Source: an uncultured Bacilli bacterium (lineage in GTDB: Bacteria > Bacillota_I > Bacilli_A > RF39 > UBA660). From it: a stretch of DNA of 47,063 nucleotides. Position numbers and translations under genes: made by a program. The notes beneath the pieces were generated by a model. The model did not search any database. It was not told where the DNA came from and saw only the letters and a list, made by a program, of their open reading frames with translations. Positions within the stretch are counted from its first letter, which is position 1. The number at the start of each line of letters is the position of its first letter. The stretch spans positions 1 through 47,063 of the forward strand of contig CANRJV010000007.1 of assembly GCA_947631045.1 (NCBI GenBank). Reading direction: 5' to 3'. Positions 5,920 through 45,514 of this stretch are shown piece by piece.

Positions 5920-6144
5920 TTAAAACCTTTTGTGAGGTTTTCTTTCATCGGTTAAATATAATAAATAATCAATAGGCACATTATAATAAGTAGCTAATTT
6001 TTTTAATATTTTAGTGGGAGTATCGCATACTCCCGTTTCATAAGATGAATAGCCAGAGCGGCTCATATTGAGAACTTTGGCTATTTTTTGTTGCGTTAAA
6101 TCTCGATCTTCTCTTATTTCTTTTAGCCTATTCATTATTATCAC
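5920..6144 (-). CDS. XRE-family (Cro/CI-type) HTH regulator
   Basis: MNRLKEIREDRDLTQQKIAKVLNMSRSGYSSYETG...YYNVPIDYLLYLTDERKP. Confidence 0.9.
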   Translation of the reverse strand: MIIMNRLKEIREDRDLTQQKIAKVLNMSRSGYSSYETGVCDTPTKILKKLATYYNVPIDYLLYLTDERKPHKRF

Positions 6145-6382
6145 TTTCTAACTCTATTAATGATTTTTTATAGGGTTTTTGTTCATCAGTCATACATAAA
6201 ATATAATCAATGCTTACATTATAGTATTTGGAAAGTTTCTTTAAGACATCAGTAGGAATATCTATTTTTTCAGTTTCGTATTTTGAATAACCTGTTTGTC
6301 CAATATTTAAATATTTAGCAATGTCTTTTTGATAAATATTATTTTGTATTCTGAGTTCTTTTAATCTATTCATAATAATCAC
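6128..6382 (-). CDS. XRE-family (Cro/CI-type) HTH regulator, paralog of 5920-6144, divergent to surface protein copy 1
   Basis: MNRLKELRIQNNIYQKDIAKYLNIGQTGYSKYETEKIDIPTDVLKKLSKYYNVSIDYILCMTDEQKP. Confidence 0.9.
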   Translation of the reverse strand: MIIMNRLKELRIQNNIYQKDIAKYLNIGQTGYSKYETEKIDIPTDVLKKLSKYYNVSIDYILCMTDEQKPYKKSLIELESDNNE

Positions 6383-6527: not shown

Positions 6528-8096
6528 ATGAAAGAAAAATTAAAGAATAAAAAGGTAATAGTAGTAAGTAGTACATTGTTAATAATGACTATAATTGTAT
6601 TATTAGTAATAACATTAAAAGATAGTTATGCCTATTATGGAACAAGTAATGAATTAGAAATAATGAAGGCTACAATAGGAAAGTTAAAACCCACAATAGA
6701 TAAAGTATATATTGAAGAAGAAAATCAATTATATACCAATAATCCAAATCCAAATGTTACAATAACATGGAGTGATGATAATATAACAGAATATTGTGTA
6801 ACAACAGAAAGTGCATGTACAGAATTTAAACTTATAGATTCAAATAGCAAAAGTGTAACAAATCAAATAACATTAACTGGTGAAAAAGAACATACAGTAA
6901 ATGCCTATATAAAAAATAAATATGGATATACATCAGCAGCAGTACAAAGTAGTATAACATTAGATACAACAGCTCCAACAATAAGTAGTGTTACATCAAC
7001 AGAAATAACTGAGACATCAATAACAGTTAATGTAACTGGTAGTGATGCTAATGGTATTAGTCAATATTGTTATAGTACAACAGGTAGTGATTATACTTGT
7101 ACAAATTCTAATACTCATACATTTAATAATTTAAATTCAGGACAACAATACACATTCTATTTTTACTTAATAGATAATGCAGGAAATGATAATAAAGCAA
7201 GTGCAACCCAAAAACAATTTACAACAATATCAAAATCTGCCAAAGATGTAGTAGTTGCCACTTCTAAGAGCCTTGAGTCAGAGGAAGCAATGCAAAAAAG
7301 AAATGATGCTATAAAGGCTGCTGGTGGAAATGTACCAGATGACTTAAGAAGATTTGTCGGAACATATGAAGAAGTAACAGATAACTTTATTTGCTTTGGA
7401 ACAAGTGATCAAAATCAATGTAAACAAAATATGGATACATACATGTATCGAATAATCGGAATAGATACAAGTGGCAGGTTAAAATTAATTAAGGCAACAA
7501 AAATTAATAATAATGGAGAAGCTACGTTTAAATGGCATAATATGTATTCTACTAATACACCTTGGAACGAATCAGACTTATATAAAGGACTAAATGGCAC
7601 GTCAAGCAAATATTTTAAAGGAAATGCAAAATATAGTTATATGCAAAATGCGCAATGGACTAATTTAATATCACCGGCAACATATTATATAGGAGACGCG
7701 CCAGATGGTACAAATCCTAATTTATTTATTAATGAAAGAAAGTCTAATTTCAGTAGTGGAAATATTAGTTTAATGTATTTAAGTGATTACTTATATGCTA
7801 ATAATGGGAATGCGAATACAAGCAATTGGTTATTTATTCAAAATGGCTTAAATAGAGATAATACAAACTTAGGAAATGGAGCATCTGCTCCAATAGCGGA
7901 ATATGAATGGACAATGACCAGGTATGGTTACAACTCCGGCCTTTACCGTGCGTGGCGTGTGGGTAGTAGCGGGACTGTGTACTGCTACAGTTTGGACGGT
8001 ACGTATGCGGTTCGTCCAGTCTTCTATCTGAAGTCAACTACACGGATATCGAATGGAAATGGAACAATTGGAACTCCGTATATAATTGCTCCTTAA
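6528..8096 (+). CDS. Secreted/anchored surface protein copy 1: signal anchor, Ig/FN3-like repeat, C-terminal C-type-lectin-like domain with hypervariable cassette (putative DGR target)
   Basis: N-terminal hydrophobic segment ending DSYAYYG; ITLDTTAPTISSV... FN3-like domain; DDLRRFVG...YMYRIIGIDTSGRLKLIKAT...; terminal TMTRYGYNSG...AVRPVFYLKS; ribosome-binding site AAAGGAG. Confidence 0.85.
   Translation: MKEKLKNKKVIVVSSTLLIMTIIVLLVITLKDSYAYYGTSNELEIMKATIGKLKPTIDKVYIEEENQLYTNNPNPNVTITWSDDNITEYCVTTESACTEFKLIDSNSKSVTNQITLTGEKEHTVNAYIKNKYGYTSAAVQSSITLDTTAPTISSVTSTEITETSITVNVTGSDANGISQYCYSTTGSDYTCTNSNTHTFNNLNSGQQYTFYFYLIDNAGNDNKASATQKQFTTISKSAKDVVVATSKSLESEEAMQKRNDAIKAAGGNVPDDLRRFVGTYEEVTDNFICFGTSDQNQCKQNMDTYMYRIIGIDTSGRLKLIKATKINNNGEATFKWHNMYSTNTPWNESDLYKGLNGTSSKYFKGNAKYSYMQNAQWTNLISPATYYIGDAPDGTNPNLFINERKSNFSSGNISLMYLSDYLYANNGNANTSNWLFIQNGLNRDNTNLGNGASAPIAEYEWTMTRYGYNSGLYRAWRVGSSGTVYCYSLDGTYAVRPVFYLKSTTRISNGNGTIGTPYIIAP
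7923..8027 (+). other. Putative DGR variable repeat VR1 (variable core 7923-8006, invariant 21-nt 3' end 8007-8027)
   Basis: GC-rich patch in AT-rich gene; codon 1/2-only variation against copies 2 and 3; identical flanks in all three genes. Confidence 0.72.
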
Positions 8097-23141: not shown

Positions 23142-23357
23142 CTATTTTTTAGACTCAATAATTATATTTAAATTTTCCTTTTTTGCAATTTCTAATAATA
23201 ATTCAAAATCAAAATTTCTTTGTCCATATTCATAATATTGAATGGCTGTTTTAGTTCTGTTAATATTTGCTCCAAAGTCTTTTTGAGTTTTACCAGTATA
23301 TTCTCTAATCATTTTAAAAACTTCATTTGCTTTATAGTTATTTGCTACTATTTTCAA
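23142..23357 (-). CDS. XRE-type HTH regulator, divergent to surface protein copy 2 (ORF track start 23384; likely TTG start at 23357)
   Basis: FKMIREYTGKTQKDFGANINRTKTAIQYYEYGQRNFDFELLLEIAKKENLNIIIE; GAGGTGATTAATTTG on the minus strand. Confidence 0.85.
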   Translation of the reverse strand: MKIVANNYKANEVFKMIREYTGKTQKDFGANINRTKTAIQYYEYGQRNFDFELLLEIAKKENLNIIIESKK

Positions 23358-23369
23358 ATTAATCACCTC

Positions 23370-23423
23370 TTGACAAGCATACAATATGTTGGTATTATTT
23401 TATTGAAAATGCCAACATATTGT
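23370..23423 (+). promoter_or_regulatory. Promoter plus operator-like inverted repeat of surface protein copy 2
   Basis: TTGACA (23370-23375)-N17-TATTAT (23393-23398); ACAATATGTTGG (23381-23392) and CCAACATATTGT (23412-23423). Confidence 0.65.
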
Positions 23424-23514: not shown

Positions 23515-25122
23515 ATGGAAGAAAAATTAAAGAATAAAAAGGTTATAGTAGTAAGTAGTATTATACTAGTAATAACTATAGTTGTATTATTAGTAATAAC
23601 ATTAAAAGACAGTTATGCTTATTATGGTGGTAGTAATGAATTACCAATAATAGAAGCTACAATAGGAAAATTAAAACCCACAATAGATAAAGTATATATT
23701 GAAAATGAAAATAAACAATATACCAATAATCCAAATCCAAATGTTACAATAACTTGGAGTGATGATAATATAACAGAGTATTGTGTAACATTAGATAGTA
23801 ACTGTACTGAATTTAATCAATTATCCGATACTGATACAAGTAAAAAAAGTGTAACTGCAACAAATCAAATAACATTAAGTGGAGAAGGACCCCATACAGT
23901 AAATGTCTATATAAAAAATAAGTATGGATATACATCAGAAGTTAAAAGTGATCAAATAACCTTAGATACAACACCACCAGCAATAAAGAGTTTATCAACA
24001 ACCGAAATAAAAGAGACAAGTGTAACAATAAAAGTAACAGCCAATAGTGGAGATATAAGTGGAATAAAACAATATTGTTATAGTACAACAGGAAGTGATT
24101 ATAAATGTGAAAATATGGTAAATGGAGAGAAGACATTTACTATAAGTGGATTAGAGGGTGGAAAAAGTTATACATTATATATTTATTTAACAGATAATGC
24201 AGGAAATAATAGTGTTCCAACCCAACAAAAATTTACAACAATATCAAAATCGGCCAAAGATGTGGTAGTTGCTACTTCTAAGAGTCTTGAAACAGAAGAA
24301 AAGATGAAATCAAGAAATGCTCAGATAAGTGGCACACAAGATGATTTAAGAAGATTTGTCGGACCATATACAACAGTAAATGATAACTTTATCTGTTTTG
24401 GAACAACTGATAAAGATGAATGCACAAGTAATAGAGATACCTATATGTATCGAATAATGGGGATAGATACAAGTGGTAGATTAAAATTAATCAAAGCAAC
24501 AAAAATAGTAACAGATAATCGAAAGACATTTCAATGGAATTTTATATATAATAGTATTGTAAAATGGAATGCATCAGATTTATATAAAGGATTGAATGGT
24601 GAAAGCCCACAACCTTCAAATAGTTCTGCATGTAATCAATGCTTTGTAGGTAATAGCAAATATAGTTATATGCAAGAGGTTCAATGGACAGATTTAATAG
24701 ATCCAACAACATATTATATAGGAAACTCAAAAGTCACTAATAATCCGACAGTATTTCAAAATGAAAGAGGAGAAAGTTTTGATAATGCAAAAATAAGCTT
24801 GATGTACTTAAGTGATTACTTATATGCTAATAATGGAGCAGCAGATAAAAGCAATTGGTTATTAATGGCAAATGGATTAAATGGAGTGACCAATACACCA
24901 AACGGCACAGATGCTCCTTCTGCGGAGAATGAATGGACAATGACTAGGCATGATTACGACACCGACCATTACACTGCGTGGTATGTGGTTAAAAACGGGA
25001 CATCGAGTTGGGATGGTTTTCGCGATACGTGGGCGGTTCGTCCAGTCTTCTATTTGAAGTCAACTATACAAATATCAGATGGAAATGGACAAATAGAAAC
25101 TCCGTATATGATTGCTCCTTAA
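23515..25122 (+). CDS. Secreted/anchored surface protein copy 2 with C-terminal hypervariable cassette (putative DGR target)
   Basis: Paralog of 6528-8096; GAWTM-like block EWTMTRHDYDTDHYTAWYVVKNGTSSWDGFRDTWAVRPVFYLKS. Confidence 0.85.
   Translation: MEEKLKNKKVIVVSSIILVITIVVLLVITLKDSYAYYGGSNELPIIEATIGKLKPTIDKVYIENENKQYTNNPNPNVTITWSDDNITEYCVTLDSNCTEFNQLSDTDTSKKSVTATNQITLSGEGPHTVNVYIKNKYGYTSEVKSDQITLDTTPPAIKSLSTTEIKETSVTIKVTANSGDISGIKQYCYSTTGSDYKCENMVNGEKTFTISGLEGGKSYTLYIYLTDNAGNNSVPTQQKFTTISKSAKDVVVATSKSLETEEKMKSRNAQISGTQDDLRRFVGPYTTVNDNFICFGTTDKDECTSNRDTYMYRIMGIDTSGRLKLIKATKIVTDNRKTFQWNFIYNSIVKWNASDLYKGLNGESPQPSNSSACNQCFVGNSKYSYMQEVQWTDLIDPTTYYIGNSKVTNNPTVFQNERGESFDNAKISLMYLSDYLYANNGAADKSNWLLMANGLNGVTNTPNGTDAPSAENEWTMTRHDYDTDHYTAWYVVKNGTSSWDGFRDTWAVRPVFYLKSTIQISDGNGQIETPYMIAP
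24949..25053 (+). other. Putative DGR variable repeat VR2 (core 24949-25032, invariant end 25033-25053)
   Basis: Same boundaries as VR1; first nine codons differ from VR1 only at codon positions 1 and 2. Confidence 0.65.
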
Positions 25123-43550: not shown

Positions 43551-43781
43551 TTAGTTTAATTTGCTTTTAGGATAACATCTTCTTTCATCAGTTCGGCATA
43601 CTAAATAATCAAGACTTACATTATAATAGTCAGCAAGAATACATAATCTATCAATGGGTATTAATTGAATTCCTAATTCATATTTTGAATATTGTTGTTG
43701 AGTTGTTTCTAAAATTTTAGCAATTGCATCTTGTGATATTTCTCTATCTTCTCTTATTTCCTTCAGCCTTAAAAGTAGCAT
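43551..43781 (-). CDS. XRE-family (Cro/CI-type) HTH regulator, divergent to surface protein copy 3
   Basis: RLKEIREDREISQDAIAKILETTQQQYSKYELGIQLIPIDRLCILADYYNVSLDYLVCRTDERR. Confidence 0.9.
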   Translation of the reverse strand: MLLLRLKEIREDREISQDAIAKILETTQQQYSKYELGIQLIPIDRLCILADYYNVSLDYLVCRTDERRCYPKSKLN

Positions 43782-43942: not shown

Positions 43943-45514
43943 ATGAAGAAAAAGTTATATGAAAAAAGAATAGTAATATCTTGTGGAATTCTTTTGCTAG
44001 TAGTAGTTTTTACTTTAATAAGAATGACATTAAAAGATAGTTATGCTTATTATGGTGGTAGTAATGAATTACCAATAATAGAAGCTACAATAGGAAAGTT
44101 AAAACCCACAATAGATAAAGTATATATTGAAGAAGAAAATAAACAATATACCAATAAAACAAATCCAAGTGTCACAATAGAGTGGCCTGATGATAATATA
44201 ACAGAGTACTGTGTAACGACTGGGAGCACATGTGATGTATTTATACAATTATCAGATCTAAATAATAAAAGTGTAACTGCAACAAATCAAATAACATTAA
44301 GTGGAGATGGATTAAAAACAGTAAATGCCTATATAAAAAATAAGTATGGATATACATCAGCAGCTAGTAGCGATACTATAACATTAGATACAACAGCACC
44401 AACAATAAGTAGTGTTGCATCAACCGAAATAACTGAGACAACAATAACAGTTAGTGTAAGTGGTGATGATACTAACGGTATTAGTCAATATTGTTATGGA
44501 ACAATCCAAAATGATTATACATGTATAGATTCTAATACTTATACATTCAGCAATTTAGGTGCAGGGAAAGAATATACATTCTGGTTCTATTTAGTAGATA
44601 ATGCAGGAAATAATAGTGTTACATCTCAGTATACATTTACAACAATATCAAAATCTGCCAAAGATGTTATAGTTGCTACTTCTAAGAGTCTTGAGTCAGA
44701 GGGAGCAATGCAAGCGAGAAATGCTCAAATAAGTGGCCCAAAAGATGATTTAAGGAGATTTGTCGGAACATATCAGACAGTAACAGATAACTTTATTTGC
44801 TTTGGAACAAGTGATCAAAATCAATGTAAACAAAATATGGACACATATATGTATCGAATAATAGGAATAGATACAAGCGGTAGATTAAAATTAATCAAGG
44901 CTACTAAAATAGTTAGTGATAAATCCGGTATCTTTGAATGGTGTAGTTGGTATTCTGCCGATATAAAATGGAATGCATCAGATTTATATAAAGTATTAAA
45001 TAATACCGATGGAAAAAAATATTTTATAGGAAACATCAAATATAGTTATATGAGCGATAGTACATGGACCAATTTAATATCACCAGTAACATATTATATA
45101 GGAAAAGCAACAGATAGTACAAATCCTAATTTATTTATTAATGAAAGAAAAGATAATTTTAGTAGTGAAAGTATTAGTTTAATGTATTTAAGTGATTACT
45201 TATATGCCAATGATGGAACAGCAAATACAGATAATTGGTTATTTATTCAAAATGGATTAAATAGAGATAATACAAACTTGGGAAACGGAGCAACTGCTCC
45301 AACAGCAGAAGATGAATGGACAATGACCAGGTATGGTTACTACAGCGACGGCGATAACTATGCGTGGACTGTGTATGATAACGGGCCTGTGGACTACGAC
45401 TATGTGAACAATTCGTATGCGGTTCGTCCAGTCTTCTATATTGACTCATCTAGGATTAATTTGAAGGGAACTGGTATTATAACTGATCCGTATTATATAA
45501 CTAATGTTAATTAG
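43943..45514 (+). CDS. Secreted/anchored surface protein copy 3 with C-terminal hypervariable cassette (putative DGR target)
   Basis: Paralog of copies 1 and 2; EWTMTRYGYYSDGDNYAWTVYDNGPVDYDYVNNSYAVRPVFY. Confidence 0.85.
   Translation: MKKKLYEKRIVISCGILLLVVVFTLIRMTLKDSYAYYGGSNELPIIEATIGKLKPTIDKVYIEEENKQYTNKTNPSVTIEWPDDNITEYCVTTGSTCDVFIQLSDLNNKSVTATNQITLSGDGLKTVNAYIKNKYGYTSAASSDTITLDTTAPTISSVASTEITETTITVSVSGDDTNGISQYCYGTIQNDYTCIDSNTYTFSNLGAGKEYTFWFYLVDNAGNNSVTSQYTFTTISKSAKDVIVATSKSLESEGAMQARNAQISGPKDDLRRFVGTYQTVTDNFICFGTSDQNQCKQNMDTYMYRIIGIDTSGRLKLIKATKIVSDKSGIFEWCSWYSADIKWNASDLYKVLNNTDGKKYFIGNIKYSYMSDSTWTNLISPVTYYIGKATDSTNPNLFINERKDNFSSESISLMYLSDYLYANDGTANTDNWLFIQNGLNRDNTNLGNGATAPTAEDEWTMTRYGYYSDGDNYAWTVYDNGPVDYDYVNNSYAVRPVFYIDSSRINLKGTGIITDPYYITNVN
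45332..45439 (+). other. Putative DGR variable repeat VR3 (core 45332-45418, invariant end 45419-45439; one extra codon)
   Basis: 17 codons before GCGGTT align to VR1 with 13 codon differences and no third-position change. Confidence 0.72.

Follow-up and report, generated by a model that had tools for sequence, protein, structure and literature searches.

Three homologous genes, T1, T2 and T3, are found in the stretch of DNA analyzed here (the window, 47,063 nucleotides), and VR1, VR2 and VR3 of a sequence-only reading form their respective 3' ends. VR2 is a variable repeat of a diversity-generating retroelement (DGR) and raises the question of whether one template repeat (TR) or several wrote it. 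The sequence and position of VR2 were as that reading had given them. Seven of the first nine codons differ between VR1 and VR2 with zero third-base changes, again in agreement with it.

The window is contig C7 of the source genome G000 (1.31 Mb, 81 contigs, 93% complete). In the record collection, its nearest relatives are MAGs of uncultured Bacilli, the majority from the 'Lapin' sample series, which makes the gut, namely the rabbit caecum, a likely source. All of the genomes compared are MAGs or draft assemblies. An own-genome search located approximately 10 further loci resembling T1, T2 and T3, which brings the related targets to 13 in total. The T2 product is probably a surface protein and consists of an N-terminal membrane anchor, Ig-like repeats and a C-terminal variable domain. 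In the T2 backbone, 29–38% of the third bases differ from those of the paralogues. As to a possible C-type-lectin-like fold around the VR, the AlphaFold model of the domain (pLDDT 39) was too poor for comparison, and a weak match to Pfam DUF6273 was obtained for 9 of 18 relatives (best E = 0.005). The positions of the features are collected in Table 1.

Table 1. Features of the window, of the DGR core contig C21 and of related genomes. Positions are those of the window unless a contig or locus is named.
Feature	Position	Strand	Remarks
T1 target gene	6528..8096	+	VR1 at 7920-8027
T2 target gene	23515..25122	+	535 aa; carries VR2 in the C-terminal variable domain
T3 target gene	43943..45514	+	VR3 at 45329-45439
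Small HTH_3-type regulator ORF, divergent from T2	23142..23384	-	score just under the Pfam cut-off
Similar small ORF upstream of T1	6128-6382		
Similar small ORF upstream of T3	43551-43781		Pfam scan covered T1 and T2 ORFs
Small Xre-type HTH ORF on C21	L019:122-553		
VR2	24946..25053	+	homologous to TR_A-TR_D; own-genome TR search
VR2 5' segment, TR_C-like	24949..24990	+	3/27 non-A mismatches, 0/14 third-base changes, 7/15 A changed
VR2 centre	24991..25020	+	fits no template; 9/18 non-A mismatches to TR_C
VR2 3' tip	25021..25035	+	AAC AAT ACG TGG GCG -> CGC GAT ACG TGG GCG; A-compatible exact to TR_D only among resident templates
Candidate IMH of VR2	25033..25053	+	GCGGTTCGTCCAG, common to VRs and TRs
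Local C21 target gene	C21 1633-2862		
Template unit TR_A	C21 2992-3096		
Template unit TR_B	C21 5022-5126		
Template unit TR_C	C21 6491-6595		
Template unit TR_D	C21 6824-6928		
MutS-domain-I ORF	C21 (L019) 7201-7590		between the last template and Avd
Avd-like ORF	C21 7574-7954		NF033474 DivGenRetAVD E=9.8e-10; PF22296 E=2e-6; both below curated cut-offs
RT ORF	G000:C21:7923-9065		RVT_1 E=1.8e-17; motifs LPIGNMTSQ, YMDD
Dispersed stand-alone template units	loci L268-L327		in G023, G008, G032, G027, G003, G037

The DGR core, made up of the RT, Avd-like and MutS-domain-I ORFs, is located on C21, a contig separate from the window. The best PDB sequence match of the RT is 8ub7, 'Reverse transcriptase' (E = 3e-24), which we take to be the BPP-1 DGR RT. 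The MutS-domain-I ORF is retained next to the RT in G008 and G003 and is a candidate DGR accessory. Four template units are present on the same contig, and no TR unit was detected within the window itself. The four are mutually 93–96% identical across ~270 nt, and a short-read assembly could collapse or mix templates so nearly identical; TR_A, TR_B and TR_C are supported as real by exact matches to independent VRs. The intervals separating the templates contain Rpn/PDDEXK_2 nuclease genes together with truncated copies of the 3' ends of these genes (L019:3335-6434). Such genes adjoin templates in G023 also and are absent in G003. Movement of the templates with these nuclease genes is not general, since G003 has six templates and zero such genes.

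Each VR was scored against every template, with changes permitted at template adenines only. Before the IMH, VR1 differs from TR_C at 20 of 35 A sites and at 0 of 55 non-A sites (p = 6e-11), and a 90-nt 3'-anchored tract of VR1 is exact to TR_C. The last (3') 77 nt of VR3 equal TR_B at every non-A site. The common template that had been assumed for VR1 and VR3 therefore resolves into two, and the proposal that at least two template repeats exist is borne out by four in the genome, different ones fitting different VRs. The VR of the C21 target is of TR_B type in its 5' half and of TR_A type in its 3' half, with a 65-nt exact TR_A tract. The VRs of C59 and C2a have TR_B 3' halves, each with a 56-nt exact tract. 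Exact 3'-anchored tracts of at least 30 nt were obtained for 7 of 13 VRs with own-genome templates and for 0 of 13 when the templates came from the other species examined. These matches indicate that several templates are in use and that VRs can be mosaic. A dedicated neighbouring template for every target was considered and rejected, because in most cases another template matches better than the adjacent one.

The segment GCGGTTCGTCCAG is followed by GTCTTCTAT (GTC TTC TAT) in the VRs versus GCCTTCTATAAC (GCC TTC TAT AAC) in the TRs. By analogy with the BPP-1 model (PMC3240598), this segment probably acts as the IMH. The RT, the Avd, a TR/VR pair differing at template adenines only and a 3' IMH with a mismatched TR counterpart identify the system as a DGR. 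The DGR is presumably active.

The best whole-length template for VR2 is TR_C, yet 13 of 55 non-A sites differ, and adenine-only change thus fails for VR2 itself. Judged by homology and position, VR2 is a DGR member without a matching resident template. Change in the 5' segment is A-biased (p = 0.014 for the counts in Table 1). The 5' end is imperfect versus every template, and its three non-A changes are T->C, G->A and G->A. The centre is without A bias, with 6 of 12 A and 9 of 18 non-A template positions changed. As had been read from the letters alone, the central codons AAA AAC GGG ACA TCG AGT TGG GAT GGT TTT depart at third bases; 6 of 10 differ from TR_C, versus 0 of 14 for codons 2–15 (Fisher p = 0.0016, with the boundaries of the sequence-only reading). 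When VR2 is divided into plain halves, third-base changes number 0/15 in the 5' half versus 7/15 in the 3' half (one-sided hypergeometric, ~0.003). A scan with freely chosen window boundaries gave p = 0.10, so the exact borders of the central block are weakly supported. The proposed split thus holds by halves and not at its exact borders. The match of VR2 to TR_D is short (15 nt) and depends chiefly on a single codon; TGG at codon 29 is found in TR_D alone among the resident templates. The claim that both ends conform stands for the 5' third bases and for these last 15 nt and falls short at the three 5' non-A changes. At codon 22, VR2 also carries TGG, as do the C36 VR and a template of the sister species G023 (L269/L270), where the resident templates have AAC.

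A template for the centre of VR2 was sought among 57, namely the 4 resident ones and 53 others extracted from the genus. The centre is no nearer to any of the 57 than shuffled codons are, and the best leaves 8 non-A mismatches. A degenerate pattern for any possible template of the centre, applied to 38 genus genomes, returned only VR2 itself and A-rich low-complexity matches at control level. VR2, C14 and three VRs of G023 hint at a template with ACG for GTG (an [A/G]CG codon); none was found, and the W-type G023 template leaves the mismatches of the centre in place. The second template invoked for the centre was thus not recovered from this set; within the sampled data, this is the outcome that the sequence-only reading had named as refuting a second template. 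Template-by-half testing assigned the 5' half to a TR_C-like template and, within the 3' half, only the last 15 nt to TR_D. The templates of other genomes are typically 5–15 mismatches from their nearest neighbour; a template differing from TR_C by at least 13 mismatches would lie near the top of this range and is conceivable. In a 93%-complete assembly, missing templates are indistinguishable from lost ones. We lean towards reading the codon-22 TGG of VR2 and C36, as in the G023 template, as a hint of an unseen (lost or unassembled) template; a third-codon change could also come from drift.

A search of the genus with one template unit revealed dispersed template units, 4–13 per genome. Four are present in G000, six in G023, where they occupy five contigs, and 10 in G037; 13 were extracted from G008, and other genomes have several. 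A TATAAT/GATAAT (-10) box appears in 58 of 58 units, and in 55 a distance of 13–14 nt separates it from the downstream leader GGTA[AG]TCTT (background 5%). The spacer 3' of the TR contains five helices with compensatory changes in 13 of 32 pairs, and 99.1% of spacer cells pair versus 39–45% in slid controls. The last spacer stem and its T-run look like an intrinsic terminator. The template transcript would be ~270 nt long, with its 5' end near GGTAATCTT and its 3' end at the predicted terminator. The template RNAs gave no Rfam family match. In G003, three VRs are each accounted for by a different template, the exact tracts measuring 58, 67 and 91 nt. Target-like loci number up to 26 in a genome (G008). 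Most VRs of G023 and G008 are without a matching resident template, which suggests that a state like that of VR2 is common in the genus.

In G037, about 10 template units were detected together with targets (L312-L320, L326, L347). The RT was not found there at E <= 1e-10 in a 94%-complete assembly and is either lost or in an assembly gap. In G016 (C12, L218), the site orthologous to T2 holds a different target with two tandem variable domains, which suggests an exchange of target cassettes at one fixed position.

For the genus as a whole, we judge it reasonably probable that a DGR has divided into a single RT/Avd/MutS-like machine acting in trans and a family of template-RNA genes (4–13 per genome) that are dispersed and transcribed separately. 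These template genes would diversify many surface-protein genes, and their turnover would leave patchwork or orphan VRs such as VR2. For VR2, the preferred explanation starts from a single RT locus, four templates, A-biased VR/TR differences and different templates for different VRs. The T2 target would be diversified in trans by the single RT, with Avd and the MutS-domain-I protein, using several template RNAs. Error-prone cDNAs of different templates would integrate at the common 3' IMH and overwrite target stretches of differing length, which would produce mosaic VRs. The 5' half of VR2 would trace to a TR_C-like template and the last 15 nt to TR_D, by a replacement very short at most. The centre would have been copied long ago from a template since lost or unassembled and would then have drifted. 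We give this sequence of an old rewrite from a missing template, later drift and at most a tiny TR_D replacement at the tip about an even chance of being correct. It is favored by the 5' half, which keeps 15 of 15 third bases despite the 29–38% divergence of the backbone. A drifted centre between better-conserved ends is, however, not predicted by simple 3'-anchored replacement. In the published BPP-1 model, the IMH fixes the 3' integration point and short homology is enough on the 5' side (PMC3240598), so the 3' parts of VRs should be the freshest. VR3, C59, C2a and C30 fit this pattern; VR2 departs from it, its 3' half being the least conforming among the VRs of the genome.

Drift alone is a tentative explanation of the same data. 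VR2 would have been last rewritten from a TR_C/TR_D-like template and, no longer retrohomed, would have collected ordinary substitutions, mostly in the centre. The third-base divergence of the centre is at least at the level of the paralogue backbone, as expected from drift, and the missing A bias, the failure to find a centre template and the abundance of untended VRs in G023 and G008 point the same way. Uniform drift would not spare the IMH, which is intact, or the 5' half, where ~5 of 15 third bases should have changed at the backbone rate and 0 did. The independent TGG of VR2 and C36, where the resident templates have AAC, also argues against it. T2 might instead have acquired its C-terminal segment by recombination with a paralogue or with the target of a relative, together with a VR made from the template of that lineage; such an origin has been proposed for Treponema denticola SP32 (PMC4891356). 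The exchanged cassette in G016, beside the same neighbour gene, and the similarity of the DNA downstream of VR2 to the C30 target are compatible with it. The C-terminal part of T2 is, if anything, closest to own-genome paralogues (56–61% versus 54–58% identity), and no other-species template matches the centre, so that we regard this origin as improbable. Chance or the common ancestry of a repetitive lectin-like domain might mimic a DGR pattern, and VR2 alone is the weakest case in this respect. The RT, the Avd, the templates with conserved structured spacers and the adenine-restricted changes of VR1 make this very improbable for VR2, and for the DGR system as a whole it is refuted.

The system resembles the Bordetella phage BPP-1 DGR (brt, avd, mtd VR) in its RT, its Avd, its adenine-specific transfer from TR to VR and a 3' IMH-like segment with divergence beyond it. 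Unlike BPP-1, where one TR lies beside one target, it has four TRs, a MutS-domain ORF and 13 VRs, of which 12 lie on other contigs. The DGR of Treponema denticola likewise combines one core locus with several remote targets, and one remote VR there fits the TR of another strain, a leftover; in contrast to its one TR per core locus, several templates per genome are found here, dispersed in sister species (PMC4891356). Both DGRs with more than one template and orphan VRs at remote targets have been described before (PMC6642488; PMC4891356). In a genome survey, ~20% of multi-VR DGRs have more than one TR, and one DGR with 6 TRs and 91 TR-VR pairs was called atypical, with few A substitutions; scattered template genes that are separately promoted and terminated were not found described there (PMC6642488). 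In the DGR network of Thiohalocapsa PB-PSB1, targets are also diversified in trans by a TR and RT encoded elsewhere (PMC10907252). That network comprises several DGR loci, at least two of which encode an RT of their own, in contrast to the one RT locus and many template genes here. Dispersed stand-alone template-RNA genes in such number were not found in the open-access literature searched. The usual picture of a DGR is one template with one or few targets. With a repertoire of template genes, one kind of receptor could be rewritten from different initial sequences and mosaics could be built, which is nearer to immune segmental repertoires. With template, target and RT unlinked and the VRs recording their last template, replacement length, template choice and template turnover would become measurable directly from strain sequences of this genus.

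Additional observations concern the target genes. One locus (L222, G000:C2:11842-13485) contains two tandem variable domains in a single open frame; the second is a good fit to no template, and the 3' part of the first is TR_B-derived. T1 and T2 border a ribosomal protein block (L3 9472 ... rpoA 21811, L17 22764), and target genes seem to be located at operon edges. The small Xre-type HTH ORFs of Table 1 lie upstream of the targets and divergent from them, and they possibly control target expression.
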